Origin: Sphingosinicella sp. BN140058
Lineage (GTDB): Bacteria > Pseudomonadota > Alphaproteobacteria > Sphingomonadales > Sphingomonadaceae
Direction: 5' to 3'
Length of the DNA: 64,000 nucleotides
Assembly: GCF_004135585.1 (NCBI RefSeq)
Contig: NZ_CP035501.1
Span: 5,093,501 to 5,157,500 of the forward strand
Below the pieces are notes generated by a model. The model searched no databases. It had not been told where the DNA came from and saw nothing but the letters and a program-made list of their open reading frames with translations. Made by a program: the position numbers and the translations under genes. How positions within the stretch are numbered: the stretch's first letter is position 1; each line of letters begins with the position of its first letter. Below are positions 43,509 through 61,906 of the stretch, piece by piece.

Positions 43509-46478
43509 CTAGGGCAACATGCCTTTGGCCAGAGACGCGGCCATCCCGGGCGTGGAGTGACTCGTCCACCGTCGGCGCGTGCTGATCGAAACCGCGCCCA
43601 GCAATCCGGACGGGGCATCGGCCGGCTCCTCGACGATCAGCACGATGTTGCGCGGCCCCGCGCCGGACGGCAGCCGGGCGGTGAGCGGGCCAGGCGCCGC
43701 GCCGCTCTTCGAGGCGAGCTTGACGCCGTCGACCCAGAGCTCGGCAGATCCGCCCACATCCATGAAATCGATTCGTCCGCCCTGCGCCGCCACTTTCTTC
43801 CAGGGCATTATCTGAGTCCGATACACGCGCCAGCCGGCCCCGGGTGTCGCCGGGGTTGCGATACCGCTGCGCACGAAATCCCAGCTGTTGTTGTCGCCGT
43901 CGGGCGGCGCCAGGCTGGGCAACGGACGTTCGGCAAGTCGAGGCGAGCGGCGCCACTCGCGGATTGCGAACGTGGCCGCCGTGGCCGCCACCTGCGCCCG
44001 CGGCGGCACATCGGCCCGGTCGATACTCAGCGTCGCCGGCCTGAGCCCGTCTGCCGACGCCTTGATGGTGATGCGACCTCGGCCACTGGCGGCGCGGACG
44101 ATAATCTGGGCGAGGCCGTTGAACAGGGACCGCGTGCCGCTGCCGGGCGCCGTCTGTTCGGGCTCATGGCTGTTGGGATCGCCATTCCCGATCCCGATTA
44201 TGGTCGCCCCATCGACCGTGAAGCGCGTCAGCAGGTTGGCGGTGGGAACATGACGCCCCTTGGCATCGACAGCGTCGATGGTGACGGGCTGGGCATCTTC
44301 GTCGTCTCCGGCCATCGCGGTCCGAGTCGGGGTGAGACGCAGTGCGACGGGTCGGCCGGCGGTCTCGTGCACCGCCCGTGCGACAACCTTGCCGCTCCGC
44401 ATCGCAATCGCCTCGATCCTTCCCGGTGCATAGGGGACCGTCCAGCTGTTGCCCATGATCCGGTCGACGGGCTGCGTTCCAAGCTGTCGGCCGTTCAGGC
44501 GCAGGGACACCGTGTCGGCATTGCTGCTGACGAAGACCTTGATTTTTTCGCCCTCACGGCCCGGCCACGTCCAGTGGGGCGCGATCGCCACCACGGCTTC
44601 GTCGTCGATCCAGTGGGCGCGATGGATGTCGAAGGCGGTCTTCGGGAAGCCGCACAGGTCGAGGATGCCGAAGAAGCTCGAGATGGTCGGCCACTCATGC
44701 GGGGTCGGCTCGCCATGATAGTCGAAGCCGGTCCAGACGAAGCCGCCGGCGACGAAAGGGCGCTCGGCGATCGCTTTCCAGCTGTCGCGGTGGGTGCCGC
44801 CCCAGCTCGCCGCTTCCTCGTCATAGGACGTGATGACATGACCGGCCTTGTCGGTCGCGAAGGCGCCGCGCGTTTCGAATGCGCTGGTGTCTTCCGAGCT
44901 GGTCATCGGCTTGGCCGGGTTGAGGCGGTGGAACTTGTCGTAATCGGCCTGATAATAATTGAACCCCATGACGTCGACGACGGTCGAGACGTTGGCGGGA
45001 TTGTAGAAAGCGCCGTTCATCGCCGCAGTGATCGGGCGGGCGCGGTCGAGCCGGTGGACCGCTGCCGACATTCGCCGGACCATTTCGACACCGGCTTCGG
45101 TGCCCTGCATGGGCTCCTCGTTGAACACCGACCACAGGATCACGCTCGGATGATTGCGGTCGCGGCGAACCAGCCATTCCAGCTGAGCGAGGTAATCGGG
45201 AGCTGGGTTGAAGATCCGGTTCTCGTCCATGACGAGGAAGCCCATCCGGTCGCACCAGTCGAGCAACTCGGCGGCCGGCGCATTATGGGACATTCGAATT
45301 GCATTGCAGCCCATCGCCTTCAGCCGCTCGAGCCGCCACGCCATCAGCGAGTCCGGCACGGCCACGCCGACTCCGGCATGGTCCTGGTGAAGGCACACGC
45401 CCTTGAGCTTGACCGGCCGATCGTTGACGAACAGCCCCCGGTCGGCATCGAAGCGGATCGTGCGAAAGCCGATCGCGATACGGCGCTCGTCGACGGCGGC
45501 CCCAGCGCGGATGACGCGGGTCTGAACGGTATAGAGGATGGGGGTCTCGACGGACCAGAGGCTCGGCGCTCCCGGATCGAGCATGAGCCGCGCCTCGGCC
45601 CGATCGAGAACTGGAATTGTCACCTCGGCACGCGCAGTGGATATCTGGCGACCTTCGGGATCGAGGAGGATCGCCTCGACCGTCACGGGTGCCGCTTCGC
45701 GTTCGATGTTGGCGAGGGTGGCGGTAACCGGCACCTGCCAGTGCGCGTCGGCGCTTCGCACCGGATTGCAATGGACGCCGTCGGTGACGATCGCGACCGG
45801 CGCGCGCCGCACCAGCCAGACATGGCGGTAGAGGCCGGCGCCTTCGTACCACCAGCCTTCCTTGGCGTCGGCGTCGACCCGAATGGCGATGATATTCTCC
45901 TCGTCGCCGAATCGCGCGAACGGCGTCAGATCGACATGGACGCTGTTATACCCGGACCAATTGTGGGCGACGAGGCTGCCGTTCACCCACAGCGTGGCGT
46001 TGGTCGCGATGCCGTCGAAGTGCAGTTCGATCGTCTTGCCGCGATCGGCGGGATCGAGCCGCAACATGCGGCGATACCAACCGATACCTCGCCGGCGGAA
46101 GCCCTGGGAGACGTTGGCGTTCTGCTCGAAGGGCTGCGCGGCGGCCCAGTCATGCGGCAGCCGCACCTCCGCCCAATCGCTGTCGTCGTAGAGCATCGCG
46201 GCGGCGCCGCGGGCATTGCCGGCCTTGACGCTGAGATAGGTGTCGTTGTGTCCCTGCGGCTCGGGTGTCGGGATGTCGCCTTCATGGAATCGCCAGCCGA
46301 GTTCGAGAAGCGTGCGCGACGGATCGGTCTCGGGAAGGCGCTGCAGCAGGCGCCGTTGCGGCGCCGGCATCGGGAAACCGTCGGCGACATCCCGGCCGAC
46401 AGGCGCCGCGCTTACGGGTGCGATGCCGAGCAGGGCGCCGGCGCTGGCGCTGCCGAGAAGAAGTTCGCGTCGGTTCAC
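43509..46478 (-). CDS. GH2 beta-galactosidase (GalA-like), exported
   Basis: A 989-residue glycoside hydrolase family 2 enzyme expected to remove terminal beta-galactose. The N-terminus MNRRELLLGSASAGALLGIA is a twin-arginine type signal. The sugar-binding domain has the block GWYRRMLRLDPADRGKTIEL, the TIM barrel has the acid/base E454 (SVFNEEP) and the likely nucleophile E529 (PMTSSEDTSAFETRG). C-terminal Ig-like domains include TNLLTRFTVDGATIIGIGNG-like sequence (TANLLTRFTV). The last 20-25 residues look unlike the family and abut the gene-free strip. It follows gntR in the same direction after 38 bp, so both may share control. Confidence 0.9.
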   Translation of the reverse strand: MNRRELLLGSASAGALLGIAPVSAAPVGRDVADGFPMPAPQRRLLQRLPETDPSRTLLELGWRFHEGDIPTPEPQGHNDTYLSVKAGNARGAAAMLYDDSDWAEVRLPHDWAAAQPFEQNANVSQGFRRRGIGWYRRMLRLDPADRGKTIELHFDGIATNATLWVNGSLVAHNWSGYNSVHVDLTPFARFGDEENIIAIRVDADAKEGWWYEGAGLYRHVWLVRRAPVAIVTDGVHCNPVRSADAHWQVPVTATLANIEREAAPVTVEAILLDPEGRQISTARAEVTIPVLDRAEARLMLDPGAPSLWSVETPILYTVQTRVIRAGAAVDERRIAIGFRTIRFDADRGLFVNDRPVKLKGVCLHQDHAGVGVAVPDSLMAWRLERLKAMGCNAIRMSHNAPAAELLDWCDRMGFLVMDENRIFNPAPDYLAQLEWLVRRDRNHPSVILWSVFNEEPMQGTEAGVEMVRRMSAAVHRLDRARPITAAMNGAFYNPANVSTVVDVMGFNYYQADYDKFHRLNPAKPMTSSEDTSAFETRGAFATDKAGHVITSYDEEAASWGGTHRDSWKAIAERPFVAGGFVWTGFDYHGEPTPHEWPTISSFFGILDLCGFPKTAFDIHRAHWIDDEAVVAIAPHWTWPGREGEKIKVFVSSNADTVSLRLNGRQLGTQPVDRIMGNSWTVPYAPGRIEAIAMRSGKVVARAVHETAGRPVALRLTPTRTAMAGDDEDAQPVTIDAVDAKGRHVPTANLLTRFTVDGATIIGIGNGDPNSHEPEQTAPGSGTRSLFNGLAQIIVRAASGRGRITIKASADGLRPATLSIDRADVPPRAQVAATAATFAIREWRRSPRLAERPLPSLAPPDGDNNSWDFVRSGIATPATPGAGWRVYRTQIMPWKKVAAQGGRIDFMDVGGSAELWVDGVKLASKSGAAPGPLTARLPSGAGPRNIVLIVEEPADAPSGLLGAVSISTRRRWTSHSTPGMAASLAKGMLP

Positions 46479-46516
46479 AGTTCAAGCTCCTGGACGGCCG
46501 CTGCGGGCCCTGAGGG

Positions 46517-47254
46517 TCAGACGTCGCTCAGTTCCGCGACGAAATCGTAGGCGTCGCCACGATAATAAGAGCGGGTGACTTCGGCGGGACGGCCGTCGCG
46601 CAAGAAGGCGCGGCGTTCGATAAGAAGGCCGGCATGCCCCGGATCCACTCCCAGCATCCGCGCGTGTTCGCCGCCGAAGGGTACGGCGCGAAGTCGCTGG
46701 ATCGCGCGGACCGGGCGCGTGCCCGCTTCTTCCAGTGCGATATAAAGGGAGTCCTTCACGGCACCGACGGACGGCAGGCAGTAACCGGCGACGGTGGAGA
46801 ATTCGAGTGCCATCGGCTCTTCGTCGGCAAAGCGGATGCGCGCGAAGCGCAGCACCGGCGCCGCCGGCGACAGGCCGAGCATCAGTGCCTCTTCGGGATT
46901 TACCTGACCGGCACCGCGCGAGATCCAGCTGCTGCTCGCCCTGCGACCGCGTGCCGCCATGTCCTCGGTGAACGACGTCAATTTGGAAAAGCTCTTTTCG
47001 ACCCGCCCGGCAACGAAGGTCCCGGCACCCCGACGCCGGGTGAGCAGGCCCTCCTCGACCAAGCCGCCGATCGCCTTGCGAACGGTGATGCGGGAGACGT
47101 CATATTCCGCGGCAAGCTCGCGCTCCGGCGGGATCGCATCGCCCTGCGCCAACACATGGCCGTCGATTGCGTCGCGGATCAGCTGCTGCAGCTGAAGATA
47201 GAGTGGAGACGGATTGTTGGTTCGGAATCGACCCACCTGTTCCGAAAAGGTCAT
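46517..47254 (-). CDS. GntR family regulator with UTRA domain (HutC/NagR type)
   Basis: A 245-residue transcription factor. The winged helix spans about residues 15-80 (SPLYLQLQQLIRDAIDGHVL, then IPPERELAAEYDVSRITVRK), and the UTRA effector domain from about 95 on (SSWISRGAGQVNPEEALMLG, ending RSYYRGDAYDFVAELSDV). UTRA proteins often sense phosphosugars or amino sugars. Positioned between two divergent groups of glycosidase genes, it is the likely switch for the locus. Confidence 0.92.
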   Translation of the reverse strand: MTFSEQVGRFRTNNPSPLYLQLQQLIRDAIDGHVLAQGDAIPPERELAAEYDVSRITVRKAIGGLVEEGLLTRRRGAGTFVAGRVEKSFSKLTSFTEDMAARGRRASSSWISRGAGQVNPEEALMLGLSPAAPVLRFARIRFADEEPMALEFSTVAGYCLPSVGAVKDSLYIALEEAGTRPVRAIQRLRAVPFGGEHARMLGVDPGHAGLLIERRAFLRDGRPAEVTRSYYRGDAYDFVAELSDV

Positions 47255-47342
47255 CGTTCCTCCCCCCGGCTCCGCCCTCGCGCTTCTTCTTGTTAAGCGT
47301 CGCTACCGCAAGCGGGACCGTTCGGCAACTCGCGACCCCGGC

Positions 47343-47366
47343 CTATATTGGTCTTATCCTTTTGAC
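47343..47366. promoter_or_regulatory. Control region between gntR and the beta-mannosidase gene
   Basis: This part of the 248-bp divergent gap contains TATATTGGTCTTATCC followed by TTTTGACA. The element TTGGTCTT (47348-47355) resembles TTGGTATT in the aspartylglucosaminidase promoter, and TTGACA (47361-47366) could be a -35. A binding site for the GntR protein is an inference from position and the shared core only. Confidence 0.35.
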
Positions 47367-47502
47367 AAATAGCGGGTGAAAAATTGTCGCGAACGGGCGG
47401 AAATGCGGCGAAAGATCCACCGGACCTATTGTGAGCAATGACATAGATTGGTTACACGCCCGCCGAGCGCCGCATCCGAGCGGCGCATGGCGGAGGCTGA
47501 TC

Positions 47503-50115
47503 ATGGTATCTTTTCGGGCGCGCAGGATCGCGGCCCTGAGCGGCGCGGCACTGCTGTTCGCATCGGCACCCGCATTATCGGCTGGACGCGACACGATTGC
47601 GCTCGACGGGCCATGGCAGGCGCGTATCGACCCACGCGACAGCGCGGCCGCGAAGGCGCATCCGCAGGAAGCCGACTGGTTTGCGGCGCATGTTCCCGGC
47701 AGCGTCCAGCAGGATCTGATCGCCGCCAAGCGCGTGCCCGATCCGTTCAAGGGCACCAACGAAGCCGCGATCCAGTGGGCCGGTCTCACCAGTTGGCAGT
47801 TCCGACGGGTGATCGACGTGACACCGGCGATGCTGGCACGAGACCATCTCGATCTCGTTTTCGAGGGGCTCGACACCTTCGCCACCATATCGGTGAACGG
47901 CACCAGATTGCTCAGCACGGGCAACGCGCACCGCCGCTGGCGGGTGGATGCCAAGCCGGCGCTCAGGGCCGGACGAAACGAGCTGCTGATCGAGATCGCG
48001 TCGCCGATCCGCACCTTGCAGCCGCAAGTGCTAGCCGATGCCAACCCGCTGCCCGGCGAGTATGAATCGGCGTTCGGGGACGAACCCAAGGGCAAGCAGA
48101 CATCCCCGTACATCCGCAAGCCGAAATACCATTATGGCTGGGACTGGGGTCCCCGGATCGTTTCGATCGGGATCTGGCGTGCCGTGCGGCTGGAGGGGTG
48201 GGACGATGCTCGGGTGGACGGCTTCCGGATCGACCAGGAAGCGCTCAACCAGGCCGAGGCGAGACTGGTCGCGCGTTACCGCATCGTCGCGGACGAGGAT
48301 GGTGACGTCCGGCTGCGCACCACGCTGACGGCACCCGACGGCACCGAACAGACGGTCGAGCGAACCGCACATGTTGCTGCCGGCGCCAACGAGGTCAGCG
48401 TCCCGCTCGCCGTCGCAGCGCCAAGGCGGTGGTGGCCGGTCGGCTATGGCGATCAGCCGCTCTACCGTGTCGAAGGTAGCGTCGCCGATGCCGAAGGCGA
48501 GATCGACCGGGTCGAGCGCAAGATCGGCCTTCGCACGGTCGAGCTGATCCGCAAGGATGGCAGCTTCGGTTTCAAGGTCAACGACGTGCCGATCTTCGCC
48601 AAGGGCGCCAATCTGATCCCGTTCGACATGTTCCCGGCCCGCGTTCCGACTGCGCAGATGCGCCATCTGGTCGAGAGCGCGCGCGACGCGAACATGAACA
48701 TGATCCGGATCTGGGGCGGCGGCTATTATCTCGACGACACCTTCTACGAGATTGCGGACGAACTCGGCATGATGATCTGGCAGGATTTTATGTTCGGCGG
48801 CTCGGTTACCCCGCCGGAGGCGGCCTTCCGGCACGACGTTCAGATCGAGGCCGAAGAGCAGGTCGAGCGGCTGCAGCCGCATCCGTCGGTGGTCGTGTGG
48901 GCCGGCAACAACGAAGTCCTTTCAGGCTGGGAGAATTGGTCCGATCGCAAGGCGTACAAGAAGAAGGTCGGCGCGGACGAGCAGGAGCGGATCGGGGTCG
49001 GCATGGCAGTGCTGTTCGATCGCGTGCTCCGCGATGCGGTGCTGACCCGGTCGCCGGGCATACCCTATTGGCCGGGATCGCCATCGACCGATTACGAGGG
49101 GCCCACCGACACCGACAAGGATGGCGATCGTCACTTCTGGGATGTGTGGTCGGGATCGAAGCCGGTCGAGCGTTACCTCGACAGCTGTCCCCGCTTCATG
49201 TCCGAATATGGGTTCCAGGCCATGCCCGATCTCTCGACGATCCGGAACTTCGCCGGGAAGGGGGCGCTCGCAATCGACAGCCCGGTGCTGAAGGCCCACC
49301 AGAAGTTCCTCGCAGGCGAGGGCAATGCCCGCCTGCAAATGTATCTCGATCAGCGGTTGCGGCCGGCGCGCGACTTTGCCGACCTCGTCTACCTGACCCA
49401 GGTCAACCAGGCCCAGGCGATCGACATGGCGGCGCGGCACCATCGCGCCTGCCGCCCCGTGACGATGGGATCGCTGTTCTGGCAGCTCAACGACACCTGG
49501 CCTGCAATCTCCTGGGCGAGCATCGACTATGAGGGGCAATGGAAATTGCTTCATCATGCCACCCGCCGCTTCTTCGCGCCTCAGGCGATCGTCACCGAGC
49601 ATCGCAACGGCAGCACTCGGGTCGCGCTCGTCTCCGACGCGACCACGCCCGTGCAAGCCGAATGGCGCATCCGTGCATTCGACATGGCGGGGAAGCCGCT
49701 TGCCGACCGTCGCGAAGCGATCGTGCTCGCGCCGCTGAGCGCGCGTGACGTCGCCGCCATCCCGGATGCAGAGCTGTTCGCGGACGCCGATCCCAAGGCA
49801 AGCTACGGCGTTGCCGAGCTGCTGGTGGATGGGCGCAGCGTATCGCGCACGATCATAGAGCGGGTCGCGCCCAAGGACATGGATTATGCGCCGCCGGGCC
49901 TCTCCGCCCGTTGGGACGGCAAGACAGTGACGATCACCGCAAAGGCGCTCGCCCGCGCCGTGATGCTCGATTTCGGCGCCGTCGCGGCGCAGCCGAGCGA
50001 TGATGGTTTCGATCTGTTGCCGGGCGAGAGCGTGACCATCGAGGTGCGCTCCGACGCCTCCGCCGCGGCCCTCCGCCGCGCGCTTACGCTCCGCAGCTTG
50101 GGGCCGCAGGCATGA
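47503..50115 (+). CDS. GH2 beta-mannosidase, exported
   Basis: An 870-residue family 2 enzyme cleaving terminal beta-mannosides, as in the Man-beta-1,4-GlcNAc core of N-glycans. The family block PKYHYGWDWGPRIVSIGIWR is diagnostic for beta-mannosidases. The acid/base E471 is in VVWAGNNEVLSGW and the nucleophile E568 in PRFMSEYGFQAMP. The N-terminus has an RARR stretch and a hydrophobic signal ending ALSAG. GGAGG lies 7 bp before the ATG. Stop overlaps the GH3 start (ATGA): translational coupling. Confidence 0.93.
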   Translation: MVSFRARRIAALSGAALLFASAPALSAGRDTIALDGPWQARIDPRDSAAAKAHPQEADWFAAHVPGSVQQDLIAAKRVPDPFKGTNEAAIQWAGLTSWQFRRVIDVTPAMLARDHLDLVFEGLDTFATISVNGTRLLSTGNAHRRWRVDAKPALRAGRNELLIEIASPIRTLQPQVLADANPLPGEYESAFGDEPKGKQTSPYIRKPKYHYGWDWGPRIVSIGIWRAVRLEGWDDARVDGFRIDQEALNQAEARLVARYRIVADEDGDVRLRTTLTAPDGTEQTVERTAHVAAGANEVSVPLAVAAPRRWWPVGYGDQPLYRVEGSVADAEGEIDRVERKIGLRTVELIRKDGSFGFKVNDVPIFAKGANLIPFDMFPARVPTAQMRHLVESARDANMNMIRIWGGGYYLDDTFYEIADELGMMIWQDFMFGGSVTPPEAAFRHDVQIEAEEQVERLQPHPSVVVWAGNNEVLSGWENWSDRKAYKKKVGADEQERIGVGMAVLFDRVLRDAVLTRSPGIPYWPGSPSTDYEGPTDTDKDGDRHFWDVWSGSKPVERYLDSCPRFMSEYGFQAMPDLSTIRNFAGKGALAIDSPVLKAHQKFLAGEGNARLQMYLDQRLRPARDFADLVYLTQVNQAQAIDMAARHHRACRPVTMGSLFWQLNDTWPAISWASIDYEGQWKLLHHATRRFFAPQAIVTEHRNGSTRVALVSDATTPVQAEWRIRAFDMAGKPLADRREAIVLAPLSARDVAAIPDAELFADADPKASYGVAELLVDGRSVSRTIIERVAPKDMDYAPPGLSARWDGKTVTITAKALARAVMLDFGAVAAQPSDDGFDLLPGESVTIEVRSDASAAALRRALTLRSLGPQA

Positions 50116-52676: not shown

Positions 52677-52728
52677 TCGATCGACGTACCTTTGCCGACA
52701 CCCGGCCGCGCCTTCTCCAGGAGCCCTT

Positions 52729-55047
52729 GTGAACCTTACCCGCCGTCAACTTCTCGCCAGCACGGCCGTAGGCCTCGCGGCTGCCGCCGCTCCTGCGGCC
52801 GCAGCGGGGCCGCGCCGTGCGGCCCCCAATCTGTTCATCGGCACGGGCGGACACGGCCATACCTATCCTGGACCGACCATGCCGTTCGGCATGGTTCAGT
52901 TGGGGCCCGACACCGATGTCGAGCGCTGGGATGCCTGTTCGGGCTATCATCGCACCGACACCTCGATCATCGGCTTCTCGCACACCCATCTTTCCGGCAC
53001 CGGCATCGGCGACATGCTCGACGTTCTGGTCGCGCCCGGCCGCGGTCCGGTGCAGCTTCAGCGGGGAACGCTCGAAGATCCCGACAGCGGCTACCGCCAG
53101 CGTTTCTCGGGCGAGCATGCCGAGCCGGGCTATTATCGGGTGGCGCTGGAGAGCGGCGTCGAGGCGGAGCTGACCGTCACCGATCGGATCGGCTGGCACC
53201 GCTATCGTTTTCCCAAGGGACAAGGGCATCTGTTGATCGACCTTTCCCATCTCGTCCTCGATTCGCGCCCGACCTCGCCGCTGATCGACGAGGCGTTGCT
53301 GGAAGTGGATTCCGCCGGAACCTTGACGGGCACGCGCCGCGTGTTCCGCTGGGCCAAGGGACGGCGAATCTTCTTCGCGATGCAGCTCTCGCGCCGGCCC
53401 GACCGGATCAGCTTCTATGGCGACGGCGATGCCGAGCAGCCGGCGGGCGCGACCCGGGTGGCGGGGCGGCGGCTCAAGGCGGTGCTGCATTATGACGATG
53501 CCGGAGCGGCGCCGATCCTGGTGCGCTGCGCGATCTCTGCTGTCGATTTGGAGGGTGCGCGTGCCAACCTCGCCGCCGAAGCGACGAGCTGGGATTTCGA
53601 TGCCGTGCGGCGTCGGGCGATCCGTGCATGGGACGATGCCTTGGCACGGGTGCGGGTGGAAGGTGGCACTGCCGACCAGCGCACGATCTTCTCGTCGGCG
53701 CTCTACCACGCCCAGGTGGCGCCGACCTTGCTGTCGGATGTCGACGGACGCTATCCGGGCCTGGATGGGAAGGTTCAGCGGGCTCCGCAAGGCCAGGCCG
53801 CATTCAGCAGCTATTCGCTCTGGGACACCTATCGCGCCGTCCATCCTTTGCTGACCCTGGTCGCCCCGGAACGCGCCAAAATCCTGGTCGACGATCTCAT
53901 CCGCCAGACGACGCAATCGCCGTACGGCCCTTTGGTTTGGCCGCTGCAGGGCAAGGAGACCGGCACCATGATCGGCTGGCACGGCGTGGTGCCGCTCGCC
54001 GAAGCCCAGGCCAAAGGCATCGAGGCGGATTATGCAGCCGCCTGGCCGGCCATCCGCCGCCGAAGCTTCGATTTCACGGCGCCGGACAAGGACAGCAGCC
54101 ACGGACGCGACCTCTATGACCGGCTCGGCTACGTTCCGGCCGACAAGGTCAACGAGAGCGTGAGCCGCACCCAGGAATATGCCTATGACGATTGGGCCTC
54201 GTCGAAACTGGCATTGGCATCCGGCGTACCCGACGATGCCGCACGGCTGCTGCGCCGCTCCGCCAACTGGCGCAACGTGATCGATCCCGCCGTTGGTTTC
54301 GCCCGTCCGAAATTTGCCGATGGGAAATGGTGGGCGCCTTATGATCCGATCCAGCTCGGCCACATGCCCACGCCGGATTGGCGCGATTATACCGAAGCCA
54401 ATGGCTGGCAGGCGACCTTCCTCAATCAGCACGACATATACGGTCTGATCGCGCATCTCGGCGGAGATGCGAAGTTCGAAGCGAAGCTGGACGCCCTGTT
54501 CACCGCGCCGTCGGAGCTTCCCGAGAATGCGCCGCCCGATATTGCCGGGCTGGTCGGCCAATATGCGCATGGCAACGAGCCGGATCAGCATGCGCCCTAC
54601 CTCTATTCCTATGTCGGCGCGGCCTGGAAGACACAGGCGATGGTGCGCCGCCTCTGCACGGAAATGTACCGCAACGATCCCGATGGCATCATCGGCAATG
54701 ACGATTGCGGGCAGATGAGCGCCTGGTTCGTCTTCTCGGCGCTCGGCTTCTATCCGGTCGACCCGGTGGAGGCGGTCTACGTGTTCGGCTCGCCCTTGTT
54801 CGAGCGCGCCGAGCTGGCGCTGGGCAGGGGGCGCAAGCTGGTCGTCGAGGCGCCCGGCAATGGACCCGACACGCCTTATGTCGCCGCGGTGGAGTTCAAC
54901 GGCCGTCCCTGGACGCGGAGCTGGATCGCCCATCGCGATCTCGCCGCCGGCGGCACTCTGCGCTTCACCATGGCGCGCACGCCCAACCGCGCCTTCGGCC
55001 GCAGCCAGGCCGATCGCCCGCCATCGTTCGGCCGTGCGCCGGCCTGA
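52729..55047 (+). CDS. GH92 exo-alpha-mannosidase, twin-arginine signal
   Basis: A 772-residue calcium-dependent enzyme trimming alpha-linked mannose from N-glycans. The GTG start with CCAGGAG upstream gives a clean twin-arginine leader, NLTRRQLLASTAVGLAAAA. Family blocks are FIGTGGHGHTYPGPTMPFGM, IIGFSHTHLSGTGIGDMLD, GYHRTDTS, HGNEPDQHAPYLYSYVG (catalytic acid E617) and GNDDCGQMSAWFVFSALGFY. It follows GH3 after 52 bp and precedes the fucosidase by 10 bp, in one operon. Confidence 0.93.
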   Translation: MNLTRRQLLASTAVGLAAAAAPAAAAGPRRAAPNLFIGTGGHGHTYPGPTMPFGMVQLGPDTDVERWDACSGYHRTDTSIIGFSHTHLSGTGIGDMLDVLVAPGRGPVQLQRGTLEDPDSGYRQRFSGEHAEPGYYRVALESGVEAELTVTDRIGWHRYRFPKGQGHLLIDLSHLVLDSRPTSPLIDEALLEVDSAGTLTGTRRVFRWAKGRRIFFAMQLSRRPDRISFYGDGDAEQPAGATRVAGRRLKAVLHYDDAGAAPILVRCAISAVDLEGARANLAAEATSWDFDAVRRRAIRAWDDALARVRVEGGTADQRTIFSSALYHAQVAPTLLSDVDGRYPGLDGKVQRAPQGQAAFSSYSLWDTYRAVHPLLTLVAPERAKILVDDLIRQTTQSPYGPLVWPLQGKETGTMIGWHGVVPLAEAQAKGIEADYAAAWPAIRRRSFDFTAPDKDSSHGRDLYDRLGYVPADKVNESVSRTQEYAYDDWASSKLALASGVPDDAARLLRRSANWRNVIDPAVGFARPKFADGKWWAPYDPIQLGHMPTPDWRDYTEANGWQATFLNQHDIYGLIAHLGGDAKFEAKLDALFTAPSELPENAPPDIAGLVGQYAHGNEPDQHAPYLYSYVGAAWKTQAMVRRLCTEMYRNDPDGIIGNDDCGQMSAWFVFSALGFYPVDPVEAVYVFGSPLFERAELALGRGRKLVVEAPGNGPDTPYVAAVEFNGRPWTRSWIAHRDLAAGGTLRFTMARTPNRAFGRSQADRPPSFGRAPA

Positions 55048-55057
55048 GAGGAAGCCA

Positions 55058-56977
55058 ATGACCGATCTTACCCGGCGCACCCTGATCGCCACCGGACTCA
55101 CCGCAGGCGCGTTGTCCGGCACTGCGCTTGCCGCACCCGCGCCCGCAGCGCCTAAGCCGTTCGGCGCCGTCCCGACGTCCCGCCAATGGCGCTGGCATGG
55201 GCGAGAGCAATATGCCTTCGTCCATTTTTCGATCAACACCTACACCGACAAGGAATGGGGCTATGGCGACGAGGATCCGGGGCTCTTCAACCCCAGCGAT
55301 TTCGATGCCGACCAGATCGTCGCGGCGGCCAAGGCCGGCGGACTCGAGGGGCTGATCCTCACCGCCAAGCACCATGACGGCTTTTGTCTGTGGCCAACGA
55401 AGCTGACCGAGCATTGCATCCGCAACAGCCCGTACAAGGGCGGCCAGGGCGACATCGTCGGCGAGATGGCGGCGGCGTGCCGGCGCGCGAAGCTTCCGTT
55501 CGGCCTCTATCTCTCGCCGTGGGACCGAAACCACGCCGAATACGGCCGCCCCGCCTATGTCGATTATTATCGGGCGCAACTGACTGAGCTCTGCACCCGC
55601 TACGGTGAGCTGTTCGAGCTCTGGTTCGACGGCGCCAATGGCGGCGACGGCTATTATGGCGGCGCGTGCGAAGCACGAAAGATCGATGCGCCACATTATT
55701 ACAACTGGCCTTCGATCGTTGCCTTGGTGCACAGGCTTCAGCCTAACGCCTGCACCTTCGATCCGCTCGGTGCCGACATACGCTGGGTCGGCAACGAGGA
55801 CGGGGTGGCGGGCGATCCCTGCTGGCCGACCATGCCGAACAAGCCCTATGATCAGAAAGAGGGCAATAGCGGCGTTCGCGGCGGCGAATTGTGGTGGCCG
55901 GCCGAAACCGATGTCTCGATCCGGCCCGGCTGGTTCTTCCACGCGGATGAGGATTCCAAGGTCAAGAGCCCGGAGCGGCTGATCCGGCTCTACGACGAGT
56001 CGGTCGGCCGCGGCACCAACCTCAACCTCAACATCCCACCGGATCGGCGCGGCCGCATCCCCGATCAGGATGTGAAGATCCTCAAATCCTATGGCGACGC
56101 GATCCGCGCCACCTTTGCACGGGATCTTGCGAGAAGCGCGGTGGCGCATGCAAGCCATAGCCGGGGCAGGGGCTTCGAGCCTGCGCGGGTGCTCGACGGG
56201 GATCGCGATACCTATTGGTCGTCACCCGACGGCGTCACCGATCCGGTGCTCACGCTCGATCTGAAGCCCGGCACCAGCTTCGACGTCGTCCGCCTCCGCG
56301 AATATCTGCCGCTCGGCGTCCGGGTCACGCGCTTCGCGGTCGACGCGGAACTGGCCGGCCGGTGGCAGACCCTCGCCGAGCAAGAGTGCATCTCCGCTCA
56401 GCGCATCCTTCGTTTGCCGAAGCCGATCGCGCCGCGTCGCCTCCGGTTGCGCATATTGGAGGCACCGGTTTGCCCGGCGATCAGCGAAGTCTCTTTGTTC
56501 AGGTCGGCGACCCCAGTGCCGGTACCGGCGATCGTCTCGTCCGATCCGACCATTCTCGACACGAGGGCCTGGAAGATCATCTCCGCTAGCGCGCCGGGCG
56601 CCGAGAAGCTGCTCGACAACGATGCGGGTACGATCTGGGCCCTTCCGGCGCCCGGCATAGGAAGCCCGGCCGAAGTGATCGCCGACATGGGCGGAACGGT
56701 TGCTCTGGCCGGCTTCAGCCTGACTCCATCCCGGCACGTGATGAGCGATGCCCGTCCCCCCAAAGGCTATGAGGCCGCGCTCAGCATCGATGGCACCAAT
56801 TGGGTACCAAGCGGAAGCGGCGAATTCTCGAACATCGCATACGCCTTGTCGACGCAGCGTATTGCGTTCGAGGCGCCGCGCGCAGCGCGCTTCCTGCGCC
56901 TTCGCTTTGCCGAGCTGTCGGTCCCGGCACCCCGTCTCGCGATCGCCGGCATCGGCGGCTTCACCGCCAAGCGCTGA
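55058..56977 (+). CDS. GH29 alpha-L-fucosidase with C-terminal F5/8-like regions
   Basis: A 639-residue exported fucosidase. The leader TDLTRRTLIATGLTAGAL is of the twin-arginine kind. The barrel contains FVHFSINTYTDKEWGYGDED, LILTAKHHDGFCLWPT, the likely nucleophile D191 in ELWFDGANG and the region RGTNLNLNIPPDRRGRIPDQ. From about residue 370 two discoidin (F5/8 type C)-like segments follow (SRGRGFEPARVLDGDRDTYW; later EKLLDNDAGTIWALPAPG), giving carbohydrate binding. It would remove core or antennary alpha-fucose. Operon member with GH92. Confidence 0.92.
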   Translation: MTDLTRRTLIATGLTAGALSGTALAAPAPAAPKPFGAVPTSRQWRWHGREQYAFVHFSINTYTDKEWGYGDEDPGLFNPSDFDADQIVAAAKAGGLEGLILTAKHHDGFCLWPTKLTEHCIRNSPYKGGQGDIVGEMAAACRRAKLPFGLYLSPWDRNHAEYGRPAYVDYYRAQLTELCTRYGELFELWFDGANGGDGYYGGACEARKIDAPHYYNWPSIVALVHRLQPNACTFDPLGADIRWVGNEDGVAGDPCWPTMPNKPYDQKEGNSGVRGGELWWPAETDVSIRPGWFFHADEDSKVKSPERLIRLYDESVGRGTNLNLNIPPDRRGRIPDQDVKILKSYGDAIRATFARDLARSAVAHASHSRGRGFEPARVLDGDRDTYWSSPDGVTDPVLTLDLKPGTSFDVVRLREYLPLGVRVTRFAVDAELAGRWQTLAEQECISAQRILRLPKPIAPRRLRLRILEAPVCPAISEVSLFRSATPVPVPAIVSSDPTILDTRAWKIISASAPGAEKLLDNDAGTIWALPAPGIGSPAEVIADMGGTVALAGFSLTPSRHVMSDARPPKGYEAALSIDGTNWVPSGSGEFSNIAYALSTQRIAFEAPRAARFLRLRFAELSVPAPRLAIAGIGGFTAKR

Positions 56978-57018
56978 AGGGTAGGCGGCGCGGCGCGCTG
57001 CCACGCACCCTCGCACAT

Positions 57019-57070
57019 TGTGGTACGTTCACCACATTTCGGTAAAATGACACCAATAAAGCAATTTGGT
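57019..57070 (+). promoter_or_regulatory. Promoter/operator region of the aspartylglucosaminidase gene
   Basis: Inside the 198-bp gap are two inverted repeats: TGTGGT-N6-ACCACA (57019-57036) and ACCAA-N9-TTGGT (57052-57070). Between them lies TAAAAT (57043-57048), a possible -10, with TTGTGG at 57018-57023 as a weak -35. The arrangement suggests a regulated promoter for the last two genes of the locus. The factor is unknown; the GntR protein is the nearest candidate. Confidence 0.5.
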
Positions 57071-57175
57071 ATTGAATGGATCCCATCGCTATGACACCGC
57101 TGGTCCGTGGCAACGATATGACGTCACGTCAGCGTGCCATGCCGGTTATAAAGCTGCTGCGATTGGGGACATTCG

Positions 57176-58174
57176 ATGAAAGCATCGCGTCGTGGAGCCA
57201 TGGCAATGGGGATGGGTGGCGCGTTCGCCGCTGCGGCTGCGCATGCCGCGCCACTGAAGCAAAAGCGGGCCATGATCGTTTCCACCTGGGATTTCGGCGC
57301 CGCCGCCAATGCGGCGGCGTTCGCGCGCATCAAGGCGGGCGGTTCGCTGCTCGACGCCGTCGAAGCGGGCGCCATGGTTCCGGAGGCGGACCCGACCAAC
57401 CATTCGGTCGGCTTCGGCGGCTACCCTGACCGCGAAGGATACGTCACCCTCGATGCGATCATCATGGACGATCGGGGCAATGTCGGCGCGGTTGCAGCGC
57501 TCGAAGACTTCGCGCATCCGATCTCGGTCGCGCGCCGTGTCATGGAGAAGACTCCCCATACCATGCTGGTCGGCGCGGGAGCGCACCAGTTTGCGCTCGA
57601 GCAGGGGTTCAGCCGTACCAAATTGCTGACGCCGGAGGCCGAGGCAGCCTGGCGCGAATGGCTCAGGACTTCTCAGTACAAGCCCGTCGCGAACAGCGAA
57701 AATCAGCGCGGTTCCGCGCTGGACCACGACACCATCGGTATCCTCGCCTGCGGAACGGACGGGCGTCTCGCCGGCGCCTGCACCACCTCAGGCATGGCCT
57801 TCAAGCTGCGTGGCCGGATCGGGGACTCGCCGCAATCGGGTTGCGGCCTCCTCGTCGAAGCCGGGGTCGGCGGTGCTACAGCCACGGGCGTCGGCGAGGA
57901 GGTGACGCGAATTGCCGGGTCCGCCCGGGTTGTCTCCTCCATGCGGGCCGGCATGTCGCCGATGGCCGCGTGCCGGGAGGCCGTTACTCATATCGCCAGG
58001 CTCCGCGGCGATGCAGTGAAGGACGCCCAGGTCGCCTTCCTGGCGATCGACCGTCGCGGCGAGGTGGGCGCCTACGCGCTCCAGCCCGGCTTTACCTATG
58101 CCGTCACCGACACGGACGGCCACACCCGAGTGTCCGCCGCGGAAAGTCTGAAGGGCGCTCCGCGCGCGCGCTGA
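57176..58174 (+). CDS. N4-(beta-N-acetylglucosaminyl)-L-asparaginase (aspartylglucosaminidase)
   Basis: An Ntn hydrolase of 332 residues that splits the amide bond between GlcNAc and asparagine. Self-cleavage is expected before T186 in LDHDTIGILACGTDGRLAG, giving alpha and beta chains; the substrate loop GRIGDSPQSGCGLLVEAGVG is conserved, as is the N-terminal STWDFGAAANAAAFARIKAG. An SRRGAMAMG leader indicates export (twin-arginine-like). GGGGACA precedes the ATG. It lies directly upstream of the TonB receptor (39 bp). Confidence 0.93.
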   Translation: MKASRRGAMAMGMGGAFAAAAAHAAPLKQKRAMIVSTWDFGAAANAAAFARIKAGGSLLDAVEAGAMVPEADPTNHSVGFGGYPDREGYVTLDAIIMDDRGNVGAVAALEDFAHPISVARRVMEKTPHTMLVGAGAHQFALEQGFSRTKLLTPEAEAAWREWLRTSQYKPVANSENQRGSALDHDTIGILACGTDGRLAGACTTSGMAFKLRGRIGDSPQSGCGLLVEAGVGGATATGVGEEVTRIAGSARVVSSMRAGMSPMAACREAVTHIARLRGDAVKDAQVAFLAIDRRGEVGAYALQPGFTYAVTDTDGHTRVSAAESLKGAPRAR

Positions 58175-58213
58175 ATATCGCAGACCTGTCTCTCCAAAGG
58201 GAAATCAAACAGA

Positions 58214-61200
58214 ATGAAGCACGTGAACGGGTTGCTGTTGGCCTCCACCTGTCTGGCCACGGCGTTTGCAACCCCCGCATTGGCGCAGGAATTGAACGAC
58301 ACCGGCGGCCCGGTTCCGGAAACCACTGCCTATGCGGATGCCGGCGAGGCCGTCGCGGACGCAACCGCCGACACCGGCATCGTCGTGACCGGTTCGCGCA
58401 TTAACCGTCCCAACGTCACGGCCGCGGCGCCGATCACCTCTGTCACCTCGGAGTCGATCCGCGCGCAGGCGGCGGTCAACATCGAGGAAGTGCTCAACCG
58501 CATCCCGCAGATCGCGCCCGACAGCCAGCAGAACTACCAGGATTCCGACGGTCGCCAGCGCATCAAGCTACGCAATCTCGGCTTCGAGCGGACGCTGACT
58601 CTGGTGGACGGCAAGCGCCTCGGCACGATGAACGGCATCGACGCGAACATGATCCCGACCGCGCTCATCCAGCGCGTCGACGTGCTCACGGGCGGTGCAT
58701 CGGCCGTCTATGGCTCGGACGCGGTCGCCGGCGTCGTCAACTTCATCATGAATGACGATTTCGAAGGCATTCAGATCAACGGCAACTACAACCTCTACGC
58801 CCACAACAACAAAGCCGGCCTGATCTCGGATGTTGCCAGCCAATATGGCTTCGACAGCCCGGCGCGGAATTTCGCGACCGACGGCGGCCGCGTCGACCTC
58901 TCGCTGACCGCCGGCACCAAGCTGTTCGACGATCGCTTTCACATCTCGGGCTACGTCAACTACCGCAAGGCGGCGCTGGTCCCGTATTCGGCGCGCGAGA
59001 CGTCGGGATGCCAGCTGGTCGAGACGGTCAAGGATGGTCCGCTGACCTGCTCCACCTCGACCTACACGCCCTACGGCTACCTTTCGCCGCGTTCGGGCGC
59101 CAATAACGGTAACGCCTACGTCAACAATCCGAACGGCAACGGCACCTTCGTTCCCTTCACGGACGCACTCGCAGCCAATCCTTATGACGGCTATTCCTTC
59201 CAGCGCGAAGCCGAGCGCTGGAATGCCGGCGGCTTCACCTCGTTCAAGATTTCGGATGCGGCGGAAGTCTATGCCAACGCCATGTGGTTCCGCGATCGTT
59301 CGAGCAACCCATATCCCGCCCGAGCCCTCAGCTACACGGCCTATGGCGACAGCCCGTATCAGGTGAATTGCAACAATCCGCTGATGTCCCCGGCCCAGGC
59401 CCAGACGATCTGCGGCAATCTCGCCGGAACCGCCGCTACGGCGCCGCTCGACGTGCGCTACCGCTTCGCCAACGTGCCCGACATCGAAGACGTCTACCTC
59501 AACAAGGGTCTCCGCATCACCGGCGGCCTGCGCGGCAGCTTCGCCGAGGGTTGGAGCTACGACGTTGGTGGCGTCTATGCCCGTAATCGGCAGGAGACCA
59601 CCTGGGGTCTCCCGGATTTCGACCGGGTGAACAATTCGCTGAACGTCGTCAACGTCAACGGCACGCTGACCTGCGCGTCCGTAGTCAACGGCACCGATCC
59701 GAATTGCCGGCCTTTCGACGCCTTCAGCCCGCGTTCCACGCGCAACGATGCTGCCCTTTACGAATACTTCGTCGACGGCAATTTCGGCACGTCGACGACG
59801 ATCAACACGCTCTACAACGGCATCGCCACCGTGCAGGGTGATCTCGGCACCTACGGCATTAAGAGCCCCTGGGCCGAGCAGGGCGTGGCGATCGCGTTCG
59901 GCGCCGAGTATCGCGAAGACCGGCTGAAGAGTTTCGCAGACGAAATCTGGCGCGAGCAGAATGGCGGCAGCGACGCCGCGCTTTCGCAGCATGTCTGGGA
60001 AGGCAATGTCGAGCTTCAGGTGCCGATCGTCGAGCGCAAGAAGTTCGCCCATCTGCTGCAGTTCAACGGTGCTTATCGCCTGTCCAAGTACAGCAGCAAC
60101 CCCGACACCTTCTCCACCTGGAAGGCGGAAGCCTTGTGGGCACCGGTGGCGGACATCACCTTCCGCGGCTCGATCAACCGGGCCCAGCGCGCTCCGACCG
60201 TGGTCGAAGCGTTCCAGGGTTCGAACATCAGCTACGATCGGATCACCACGGCCTATAACGATATCTGCGCACCGACGGTGACCTACGTCACCGATCCCAA
60301 GACGGGTGTCCGCACCGCTGTCTACGGTTCGCCGACGGCGTCGCGCGAAGTCTGCGCGGCCACGGGTCTTGCCGACAATCTCTACGGCAGCACCAGCCTT
60401 GTCTGCCCGGATGAGGTCGGCTGCACCGTCCGCCGCGGCGGCTTCGCCGTCGACCCGGAGACCGCCTACACCAAGACGTTCGGTGTCGTGTTGCGGCCGC
60501 GCTTCGTTCCCGGCCTGACCTTCTCGGTCGACCGCTTCCTGATCGATCTCAACGACTCGATCGGCTACAACGATTACGATTATTTCTCGAACGGCTGCCT
60601 TGCCACCGGCGACGAGTTCTTCTGCCGAATGTTCGTTCGCAATGCCGACGGAACGCTGTACAGCGCGCCCGGCGGCAATCCGTCGACGGGCTTCATCCGC
60701 GGGGGCACCACCAATTACTACAAGAGCAAGTCGCACGGCTGGGATTTCCAGGGCCAATATGCTCTGGCGCTCGGCAGCGCAGGTCGCCTGGACTTCGATT
60801 TCGCCGGATCGTTGACCACCTATGCCGGTGGCCAGGATTCGCCGATCCTCGCCAAGTATAATTGCACCGGCTATTATGGTGGCGGCTGCAGCCAGCTGAT
60901 CCCGAAGTGGACCCACAGCCTTCGCGGTACCTACACCACCGCCGACCGCTTCTTCAGCGCCTCGGTCAATTGGCGGCACCTGGGCCCGCTGACCAATGTC
61001 AGCAACTCCGGCGATCCGGCGCTCGGCTACACGCCGGCTGGTGAGCGTGAGACCTTCTATCGCATCGGCGCCTACGACTATTTCGATCTGGCGCTAAGCT
61101 TCCGGGTGAACGAGGCGTTCTCGTTCCGGGTCTCCGCGAACAACATCCTCGACAAGACCCCGCCGATCCTGCCGAACTCGTACAATTATGGTCTGTCGCG

Positions 61201-61273
61201 CAGCAACACTCTGTCGGCACGCTACGATTCGCTCGGCCGCATCCTGGCGGTTGGCGCAACGCTCAATTTCTGA
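58214..61273 (+). CDS. TonB-dependent outer-membrane receptor
   Basis: A 1,019-residue outer-membrane transporter with signal peptide (VNGLLLASTCLATAFATPAL). The plug has the TonB-box-proximal VVTGSRINRPNVTAAAPITS, then EEVLNRIPQIAPDSQQNYQD and VDVLTGGASAVYGSDAVAGV; a large beta barrel follows and the chain ends in phenylalanine (LAVGATLNF). It belongs to the type abundant in sphingomonads for carbohydrate or complex organic substrates. Co-transcription with aspartylglucosaminidase suggests uptake of a glycan or glycopeptide fragment. Confidence 0.94.
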   Translation: MKHVNGLLLASTCLATAFATPALAQELNDTGGPVPETTAYADAGEAVADATADTGIVVTGSRINRPNVTAAAPITSVTSESIRAQAAVNIEEVLNRIPQIAPDSQQNYQDSDGRQRIKLRNLGFERTLTLVDGKRLGTMNGIDANMIPTALIQRVDVLTGGASAVYGSDAVAGVVNFIMNDDFEGIQINGNYNLYAHNNKAGLISDVASQYGFDSPARNFATDGGRVDLSLTAGTKLFDDRFHISGYVNYRKAALVPYSARETSGCQLVETVKDGPLTCSTSTYTPYGYLSPRSGANNGNAYVNNPNGNGTFVPFTDALAANPYDGYSFQREAERWNAGGFTSFKISDAAEVYANAMWFRDRSSNPYPARALSYTAYGDSPYQVNCNNPLMSPAQAQTICGNLAGTAATAPLDVRYRFANVPDIEDVYLNKGLRITGGLRGSFAEGWSYDVGGVYARNRQETTWGLPDFDRVNNSLNVVNVNGTLTCASVVNGTDPNCRPFDAFSPRSTRNDAALYEYFVDGNFGTSTTINTLYNGIATVQGDLGTYGIKSPWAEQGVAIAFGAEYREDRLKSFADEIWREQNGGSDAALSQHVWEGNVELQVPIVERKKFAHLLQFNGAYRLSKYSSNPDTFSTWKAEALWAPVADITFRGSINRAQRAPTVVEAFQGSNISYDRITTAYNDICAPTVTYVTDPKTGVRTAVYGSPTASREVCAATGLADNLYGSTSLVCPDEVGCTVRRGGFAVDPETAYTKTFGVVLRPRFVPGLTFSVDRFLIDLNDSIGYNDYDYFSNGCLATGDEFFCRMFVRNADGTLYSAPGGNPSTGFIRGGTTNYYKSKSHGWDFQGQYALALGSAGRLDFDFAGSLTTYAGGQDSPILAKYNCTGYYGGGCSQLIPKWTHSLRGTYTTADRFFSASVNWRHLGPLTNVSNSGDPALGYTPAGERETFYRIGAYDYFDLALSFRVNEAFSFRVSANNILDKTPPILPNSYNYGLSRSNTLSARYDSLGRILAVGATLNF

Positions 61274-61363: not shown

Positions 61364-61906
61364 TCAGAGTTCGAGGCGCGCGACCTCGCTCGCCCGGGCC
61401 GGCCGGCGGGCCTTGCCGCGGCTGAACAGCGCATAGGCGCCGACGCCGATCGCGGCCATCACCGCGACCTTGGTCGCCAGGCCTTTCTTGTTGTGCTTCC
61501 ACTCGGCGCGCACCCCCATCTCGCCGGGGATGTTCGGCACCTTGCCGTGGCCCAGATCCTCGACCACGCCCTCGACGACGTTGATTCGGTCGGCGCCCAT
61601 CAGCAGCAGCCAATGCATCCAGTTGCTCTCGCTGTATCGAAAGGCGACCCGGCGGATCATGCCGCTGACCGCCGACGGCGGTGTCGACGTGCCGAACACC
61701 GCCGGCCGCCGGATGTGCTCGATCGATTGGAGCACCTCGACATTCGACTGCTGGACACGGGGGCGGACCCAATCGGCGGTGAGGCCGGGATCCTGGTCGC
61801 GGTTGCGGTAAGGGTAGGTGGGATCGTTGCGGGGATCGGCATCGACGGCCCAGCCGTTGATGGCCGACGTGTCGACGAGCGTCTTGTTTCCGGTCAATGC
61901 ATTCAT
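61364..61906 (-). CDS. Hypothetical protein with C-terminal membrane segment
   Basis: A 180-residue protein (MNALTGNKTLVDTSAINGWA...) that I do not recognise. Residues 1-145 look soluble, with WMHWLLLMGADRINVVEGVV in the middle; a hydrophobic segment, ATKVAVMAAIGVGAYALFS, near the C-terminus is a possible membrane anchor, followed by a basic stretch. It follows the alcohol dehydrogenase gene by 18 bp in the same direction, so the two are probably co-transcribed. Confidence 0.7.
   Translation of the reverse strand: MNALTGNKTLVDTSAINGWAVDADPRNDPTYPYRNRDQDPGLTADWVRPRVQQSNVEVLQSIEHIRRPAVFGTSTPPSAVSGMIRRVAFRYSESNWMHWLLLMGADRINVVEGVVEDLGHGKVPNIPGEMGVRAEWKHNKKGLATKVAVMAAIGVGAYALFSRGKARRPARASEVARLEL

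Follow-up and report, generated by a model that had tools for sequence, protein, structure and literature searches.

The nix (N-glycan) cluster of Xanthomonas campestris and Xanthomonas citri, nixD to nixL, was reportedly described by Dupoiron in 2015. We take NixF (a COG3858 glycosyl hydrolase) to belong to glycoside hydrolase family 18 (GH18), NixJ to GH125, and NixL to GH35. The composition of the cluster is given in Table 2 of PMC6718126 and also in PMC5700972. NixE is listed as a GH29 enzyme of subfamily A, and X. citri has cutC (XAC3091) and an asparaginase gene (XAC3092) not far from nixL (XAC3084). A second system, by which Bacteroides massiliensis degrades plant complex N-glycans (PMC9522356), has a GH92 enzyme, a GH3 xylosidase, a GH2 beta-1,3-galactosidase, and GH29 fucosidases, together with a PNGase and SusC/D. 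Here we compare these systems with an eight-gene locus of Sphingosinicella sp. BN140058, which lies in a stretch of 64,000 nucleotides (nt) of contig NZ_CP035501.1 ("the window"). From its sequence and its relatives, we consider it probable that the locus serves the catabolism of asparagine (Asn)-linked glycans, most likely of the plant complex type and probably under a NagQ-type regulator.

An earlier, sequence-only reading had named eight genes, and Pfam and NCBIfam searches identified all of them at 43509-61273. The genes are listed below with three operator-like sites or elements; AGA stands for aspartylglucosaminidase, ORF for open reading frame, and Tat for twin-arginine translocation. 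The likely start sites at 47503, 52729, and 55058 were picked by visual inspection of ribosome sites and of N-termini that resemble signals.

43509..46478, minus strand: GH2 beta-galactosidase, GalA type, Tat-like signal NRREL (Pfam GH2 with TIM barrel; NCBIfam NF041462)
46517..47254, minus strand: GntR/UTRA regulator, HutC subfamily, NagR/DasR-like (Pfam GntR and UTRA)
47339..47356, plus strand: operator-like site 1, contains ATTGGTCT (matrix score 20.6, top of the 64-kb window)
47439..47456, plus strand: operator-like site 2, contains ATTGGTTACA (score 20.5, second in the window; 100 nt from site 1)
47503..50115 (ORF 47431-50115), plus strand: GH2 exo-beta-mannosidase (Pfam GH2 with mannosidase Ig domains; GNNE and SEYG motifs)
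50112..52676, plus strand: GH3-PA14 beta-xylosidase-like enzyme (Pfam GH3 N, C, and Fn3 with PA14)
52729..55047 (ORF 52522-55047), plus strand: GH92 alpha-mannosidase, Tat-like signal TRRQL (Pfam GH92 N and C)
55058..56977 (ORF 54860-56977), plus strand: GH29 alpha-L-fucosidase, AmGH29D/Lewis type, Tat-like signal TRRTL (Pfam Alpha_L_fucos and F5/8 C domains)
57048..57074, plus strand: element before AGA, consisting of ACCAA, 9 nt, and then TTGGTATTG (57066-57074); conserved in AGA operons
57176..58174, plus strand: glycosylasparaginase (AGA), an Ntn hydrolase (Pfam Asparaginase_2)
58214..61273, plus strand: TonB-dependent receptor (Pfam plug and barrel)

The galactosidase and the GntR gene form a leftward pair with 38 nt between them, and the other six genes run rightward (mannosidase, GH3, GH92, GH29, AGA, receptor). 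The mannosidase and GH3 genes overlap by 4 nt. The gaps that follow are 52 nt (GH3-GH92), 10 nt (GH92-GH29), 198 nt (GH29-AGA, which contains the conserved element), and 39 nt (AGA-receptor). We consider the arrangement to be more than chance because it is conserved in other genomes. To describe this, we used the best 80 of 582 confirmed loci, each defined by one beta-mannosidase alignment with 10-kb flanks. All 80 hold the mannosidase by design, the list leans to sphingomonads, and six loci are shorter than 22 kb as their contigs end. A gene was considered present if it had a tblastn match at 1e-12 (at the family level for GH92, GH20, and GH125); the galactosidase and the window-type receptor were counted at 45% identity or above. 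Gene calls in the neighbourhoods come partly from a simple codon-usage score trained on the window genes.

The operon recurs in Sphingomonas, Novosphingobium, Sphingobium, Niveispirillum, and Caulobacter, and its core is also found in Xanthomonas. In 77 of the 80 loci, the first gene matched beyond the mannosidase is GH3. GH29 is present in 68, GntR in 65, GH92 in 64, the galactosidase in 47, the window-type receptor in nine, and AGA in five. A receptor that is nearer to this genome's own receptors at 4.64 or 0.73 Mb is present in 46 loci, and in six loci the GH29 is nearest to this genome's second GH29 (at 1.006 Mb). The short form seen in the window, with an identical gene order, is also found in S. 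gei (L122) and S. naasensis (L123). Genome G275 has the window's order plus a GH20 gene before the mannosidase and a GH125 gene between GH3 and GH92; its contig ends inside the receptor. The sequence-only reading had remarked on the absence of endoglycosidases and hexosaminidases, and this is right locally: Pfam found no GH18, GH85, GH20, or GH84 domain among the eight locus proteins and the ten ORFs scanned between 33.5 and 64 kb of the window. Because GH20 and GH125 lie inside the operon of G275 and of many other relatives (63/80 and 58/80, respectively), these gaps are lineage differences.

In records named Niveispirillum or Azospirillum (L116, L119, L120, and L131), the operon is at 76% (mannosidase) and 84% (GntR) identity, inside the range for Sphingomonas, which suggests horizontal transfer. 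(The name of one record, Microvirga sp. SRT01, may be wrong.) The relatives also share candidate export signals. By motif, the galactosidase, GH92, GH29, and AGA of the window have Tat-like twin-arginine signals. Among relatives at above 390 bits, with the window left out and some ORFs cut at the ends of their stretches, the motif was found in GH29 (9/9), GH125 (7/7), GH92 (6/8), AGA (8/11), and the galactosidase (4/5), and in none of the GH20 (0/5), mannosidase (0/14), or GH3 (0/8) proteins. Two of the AGA entries, L055 and L056, were read across an in-frame stop (G282, the genome of L056, has an internal TGA). These motifs would fit export to the periplasm.

By sequence, the enzyme that would make the last cut belongs with the glycosylasparaginases and not with the isoaspartyl peptidases: it matches solved glycosylasparaginases at 327 bits and isoaspartyl peptidases at 99 bits or less. 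Its beta chain begins at T186, and it has the motifs STWDFG, HDTIG, TTSGMA, and RGRIGDSP. In the bacterial glycosylasparaginase, we take the autoproteolytic threonine and the substrate residues to be W11, T152, T170, R180, and D183. The equivalent residues in the alignment are W38, T186, T204, R214, and D217, so the same five amino acids are present. The mannosidase matches 6BYE, a beta-mannosidase that is presumably from X. citri, at 887 bits, and the galactosidase scores 1122 bits against the NCBIfam model for GalA (NF041462; cut-off of 900).

The best solved relatives of the GH3 protein are beta-xylosidases, and its top NCBIfam model is the xylan xylosidase Xyl3A (746 bits, which is under the cut-off of 1250). 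Members of GH2, GH3, and GH29 also act on hemicellulose, so the locus might instead trim the side chains of galactoglucomannan or xyloglucan oligomers. However, we know of no role in hemicellulose breakdown for GH92 or AGA, which are in the window, or for GH20 or GH125, which are in the relatives. In the Pfam search, none of the eight locus proteins had an endo-mannanase or endo-xylanase domain, and the regulator and its sites (described below) are of the N-acetylglucosamine (GlcNAc) type. We consider a hemicellulose locus to be very unlikely.

The GH29 protein matches 8AYR at 527 bits and is also nearest to other alpha-1,3/4-fucosidases. 8AYR is AmGH29D, which acts on Lewis a and Lewis x, including the Lewis epitopes of mucin, and this raises the question of whether the substrate could be N- or O-glycans from animals, insects, or mucin. 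However, a xylosidase-like GH3 follows the mannosidase in nearly every locus (77/80), no sialidase domain was found by Pfam among the eight proteins, and Lewis a is also a plant antenna. An animal or mucin substrate is thus highly improbable.

For GH92, the best solved relative is 7ZGM (531 bits), which PMC9522356 describes as a plant N-glycan alpha-1,3-mannosidase of B. massiliensis. GH92 and GH125 enzymes act on alpha-mannans, according to a review, and this genome has another cluster with three GH92 genes and a GH125 gene at 4.63-4.66 Mb. The locus could therefore target high-mannose glycans or fungal mannan, with GH92 (and GH125 in the relatives) as the central activity and the other enzymes as accessories. 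We view this as improbable: Pfam found no GH76 or GH99 endo-mannanase among the eight proteins; GH92 itself is missing from 16 of the 80 loci; and the frequent presence of GH3, GH29 (68/80), and the GH2 galactosidase (47/80) fits a complex substrate better.

The relationship to the nix cluster was checked with Xanthomonas sp. F10 (L194), which shares a syntenic GH20-GH2-GH3 core with the related loci. This locus contains a receptor, GH29, an unassigned stretch, GH20, a GH2 mannosidase, and GH3, in an order that matches nixD, E, F, G, H, and I in Table 2 of PMC6718126. The neighbors corresponding to NixH and NixI, the GH2 mannosidase followed by GH3, are also adjacent in the window, where they are 50% and 56% identical to the F10 pair. 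The GH92 family of NixK is present in the window as well (the L194 stretch ends before nixK), and both systems have a GH29, a beta-galactosidase, and a TonB receptor. These last three differ in kind. Whereas NixE is of subfamily A, the GH29 of the window is of the Lewis (8AYR) type, and the window has a GH2 galactosidase instead of a GH35 enzyme (the presumed family of NixL). In L116 and L194, the receptors that precede the operon match the TonB-Xanth-Caul model (TIGR01782) at 663 and 805 bits, whereas the window receptor has no match to it at E = 0.001. The window locus also lacks GH18 (the presumed family of NixF; two GH18 genes are elsewhere in the genome), NixG (GH20), and GH125 (the presumed family of NixJ). 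For the ORF at the NixF position of L194, we found no Pfam match, and we treat GH18 as the presumed family of NixF only. The GH18 from this genome's own nag locus was considered as a candidate NixF and rejected, since a tblastn search of the 80 loci with it gave no match at 1e-15. Conversely, the window alone of the two has AGA and a receptor at the 3' end, behind their own conserved site, and the divergent NagR/DasR-like GntR is a feature of the window. By sequence, the locus is not the nix cluster proper: it has a homologous core, but several of the parts that define nix are missing or replaced, namely the fucosidase, the galactosidase, the receptor, and GH18. A Caulobacter locus (L184), with another GH29 and a GH18 upstream and a Lewis-type GH29 downstream, is in gene content a bridge between the nix-like and window architectures.

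The likeness to B. massiliensis is in the four enzyme families named above (PMC9522356). AGA and a TonB receptor stand in the window where that pathway has a PNGase and SusC/D, and most of the residues at the +1 subsite of 7ZGM are not conserved. The literature searched, which was largely open-access, contained no N-glycan locus from a sphingomonad; this is not proof of novelty.

The best solved relatives of the GntR protein are YvoA/NagR (125 bits) and DasR (120 bits), with the next at 91 bits. In the literature, DasR, NagR, and NagQ are GlcNAc regulators, the sites of NagQ are direct repeats of TGGTATT (PMC4494728), and NagQ is found in alphaproteobacteria with a core regulon of nagA, nagB, and a phosphotransferase system (PTS; PMC5343134). 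Given this description of direct repeats, a palindromic reading of the sites was dropped. We scored the window with a matrix built from 43 distinct sites from relatives (window excluded); these were chosen for ATTGGT, so the core is built in. The two top scores, 20.6 and 20.5, are at the divergent promoter, where ATTGGTCT and ATTGGTTA lie in the same orientation as candidate sites, and the third (14.3) is at 57048, ahead of AGA. The best scores in five shuffled windows were 12.0-17.4. Other stretches of the genome had matrix scores of 18.5 (L014, within a predicted ORF), 16.4 (L065), and 15.7 (L016, ahead of the PTS operon); the latter two are within the shuffled range. In many relatives, the region between GntR and the divergent gene holds a pair of ATTGGT sites spaced by about 100 nt. 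Among 68 such intergenic stretches (23-500 nt long, window included), 51 have at least one ATTGGT and 37 have at least two.

The second promoter region has its own conserved sequence. TTGGTATTG was found in all seven loci with AGA inside the operon, and the window has one match (0.04 expected). ACCAA lies 8-9 nt ahead of it in five of the seven; it is farther off in L049 and was not found in L124. Both promoter regions have conserved TTGGT sites that resemble the published NagQ half-site TGGTATT. The NagR/DasR-like GntR, these TGGTATT-like sites, and the NagQ literature are the reasons to think that the regulator is probably of the NagQ type and induced by amino-sugar metabolites. As in the NagQ regulon of Proteobacteria (PMC5343134 and PMC4494728), the regulator is of the GntR/HutC subfamily, its putative sites are TGGTATT-like, and 25 of the 80 loci have a PTS homologue in their 10-kb flanks. 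It differs in that the window regulator adjoins an N-glycan operon, and its sites are putative. Across the genome, the pattern ACCTATATTGGTHW with one mismatch matched site 1 only and so gave no genome-wide regulon.

Overall, the N-glycan reading is upheld by orthology, nix-type synteny, the glycosylasparaginase, the GlcNAc-type regulator and sites, and relatives with GH20 and GH125 in the operon. On the other side, several observations weigh against it or against a plant substrate. According to PMC9522356 (section 9), the +1 subsite of 7ZGM is lined by Y72, W178, W209, H530, E532, and S533. The window GH92 keeps only W209 and H530, without Y72, W178, E532, or S533, in a pairwise alignment to 7ZGM with a chain offset of 29 that was inferred from the alignment. 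With just two of the six residues kept, the linkage specificity of GH92 is not settled by its sequence. The locus does not account for the removal of core alpha-1,3-fucose; the only other GH29 that was found (at 1.006 Mb) is unlinked to it. For the GalA of X. campestris, activity was reportedly undetectable in strain Xc17. The window's copy of the operon has neither GH20 nor GH125, and the two GH20 proteins of the genome are only 43% and 28% identical to a relative's in-locus GH20. We found no match to PNGase F (PF09113) in this genome, but the control for this search matched nowhere, so this is no evidence of absence. Two genomes with a strong GH29 match (G183 and G224) show no mannosidase or GH3 nearby, and in L109-L111, L113, and L114, where the mannosidase is 45-47% identical and GH92 is kept, the stretches taken contain no match to GH3, GH125, or AGA. 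As for the sites, ATTGGT is absent from 17 of the 68 divergent stretches, and ATTGGTHW is no rarer than chance in the window (three found, 2.5 expected). The argument for the sites is carried by position and conservation, not rarity. On balance, the suggestion that the glycan is of the plant complex type is likely, given the xylosidase-like GH3, the Lewis-type GH29, and 7ZGM as the nearest relative of GH92, and it is weakened by the poorly conserved subsite.

The locus had also been called complete-looking, which it is not: the GH20 and GH125 steps need enzymes encoded at other sites of the genome, which does have members of both families. GH92 is encoded by six genes in the genome (three matches at 1.168 Mb are a single ORF). 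A second mannosidase cluster at 4632000-4656000 (L011 and L012) has three GH92 genes, GH125, GH43, GH2, three TonB receptors, a trehalase, and CutC. This cluster may supply the alpha-mannosidase step, because one of its GH92 proteins shares 69% identity with that of the window, and its GH125 (at 4.64 Mb) shares 62% with the GH125 encoded in the G275 locus. GH20 genes are at 0.728 and 3.600 Mb. A GlcNAc locus at 3594000-3606000 (L016) encodes a PTS IIBC protein (over its cut-off), an EI-HPr-EIIA fusion, GH18, and GH20, as well as a GntR from the same sequence cluster as the window GntR and a NagX-like protein (under its cut-off). No GH85 was found in this genome (the search control matched in one genome).

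Beyond families, gene order, conservation, and sites, we infer substrates, order of cuts, import, and induction as follows. The substrates would be plant complex glycans with Lewis a antennae and beta-1,2-xylose, and the TonB receptor would import the glycan while it still carries Asn or a short peptide. In the periplasm, GH29 would remove the antennary alpha-1,4-fucose, and then the GH2 galactosidase would remove the beta-1,3-galactose. The antennary GlcNAc would be taken off by a GH20 that this genome encodes outside the locus (in the operon in relatives), and GH92, with a GH125 from elsewhere, would remove the alpha-mannoses. GH3 would then remove the beta-xylose and the GH2 mannosidase the core beta-mannose. 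Finally, GH20 would remove the outer core GlcNAc, and AGA would split GlcNAc from Asn. This order (GH29, GH2 galactosidase, GH20, GH92/GH125, GH3, GH2 mannosidase, GH20, AGA) is proposed by analogy with the B. massiliensis pathway in PMC9522356: there, antennary fucose has to be removed before galactose, and mannose and xylose before core fucose is fully removed. GlcNAc derivatives would be the likely inducer. The locus would depend on other genes for the GH20 and GH125 activities, for core defucosylation, and for the proteases needed to generate glycopeptides.

AGA and the adjoining receptor could be a movable module for the uptake of glycoasparagines, importing N-glycans that are still attached to Asn or a short peptide. 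Such uptake would need no endoglycosidase or PNGase, and AGA would make the last cut. We consider this proposal less likely than not. The window receptor matches solved chains only over residues 50-200 or so, which is the plug region (BtuB and siderophore/colicin receptors). The pair is adjacent in all five named operons that hold AGA and in six of the 12 genomes of the order that have AGA (that of BN140058, G275, G062, G249, G132, and G283), in tandem in three and divergent in three. The window-type receptor downstream (nine loci) and a same-strand receptor upstream (43 loci) were never found together (0/80); 28 loci have neither type, partly as the flanks end. Here, an upstream receptor means a match to one of three receptors from this genome, and the NCBIfam check was on L116 and L194 only. 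L118 and L145 have an additional receptor fragment upstream on the other strand. Against the module, the other six AGA genomes have no such receptor near AGA; the receptor follows GH29 without AGA in four of the nine named loci (L118, L121, L125, and L145) and in G185; and TTGGTATTG was not found in the 250 nt before any of 10 AGA genes outside the operon (0/10).

AGA and GH29 are also associated across genomes. Among 296 genomes of the order, AGA was found at 434-716 bits in 12 (the next best match is at 181 bits), and GH29 at E ≤ 1e-60 in 11 (ten at 881.8 bits or above, and G101 at 317). Nine genomes have both (co-occurrence probability 2.8e-13, a value that counts the weak G101 among the 11 GH29 genomes and ignores relatedness). 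The two genes are in one locus in just two of the nine (BN140058 and G275) and apart in seven, so the link is not mere neighbourhood. The mannosidase, GH3, and GH29 occur together in eight of the ten genomes with a strong GH29. Across the phylum, 21 of 398 genomes had a mannosidase match at E ≤ 1e-100. G503 (L108) keeps CutC, mannosidase, GH3, GH125, and GH92, and a far relative, G419 (L112), has the mannosidase (34%), GH92 (40%), and AGA (53%) within 11 kb.

We noticed some other genes near these families. In five of the 296 genomes (L060-L064), there is a class of Asparaginase_2 proteins between AGA and the isoaspartyl peptidases (160-181 bits), with partly common neighbors; these have GHDTVG but no STW motif and were not counted as AGA. 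In L107 (G101:C204), from another family of the order, three AGA-like genes (32%) flank a distant GH29 (35%). CutC lies within 10 kb in 23 of the 80 loci (e.g., L138, L147, L155, and L164), often adjoining GntR, and directly ahead of AGA in G039 and G185 (L050 and L051); this genome's copy (L011:16319-17056) is beside its GH92 cluster. CutC may have a role at N-glycan genes that does not concern copper. To the right of the window locus, an ORF of 180 amino acids (61364-61906, minus strand) without a Pfam match adjoins a zinc alcohol dehydrogenase gene on the same strand.

The locus is a relative of the known Xanthomonas cluster with new parts: a different fucosidase, a different receptor, and AGA, which would cut the last, asparagine-linked sugar. 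It provides a second architecture, in which AGA is combined with an unusual receptor, as well as a set of enzymes that are likely to act on plant N-glycans. PMC5700972 and PMC6718126 describe the nix genes of Xanthomonadaceae as enriched in phytopathogens or as found only in plant-associated genomes, and interpret them as tools against plant immunity. Of the 80 loci, ten are from strains named "Leaf" plus a number, with leaf origin judged by the name. The presence of the same operon core in many Sphingomonas weakens nix as a mark of virulence and suggests a nutritional trait that is common to commensals and pathogens.

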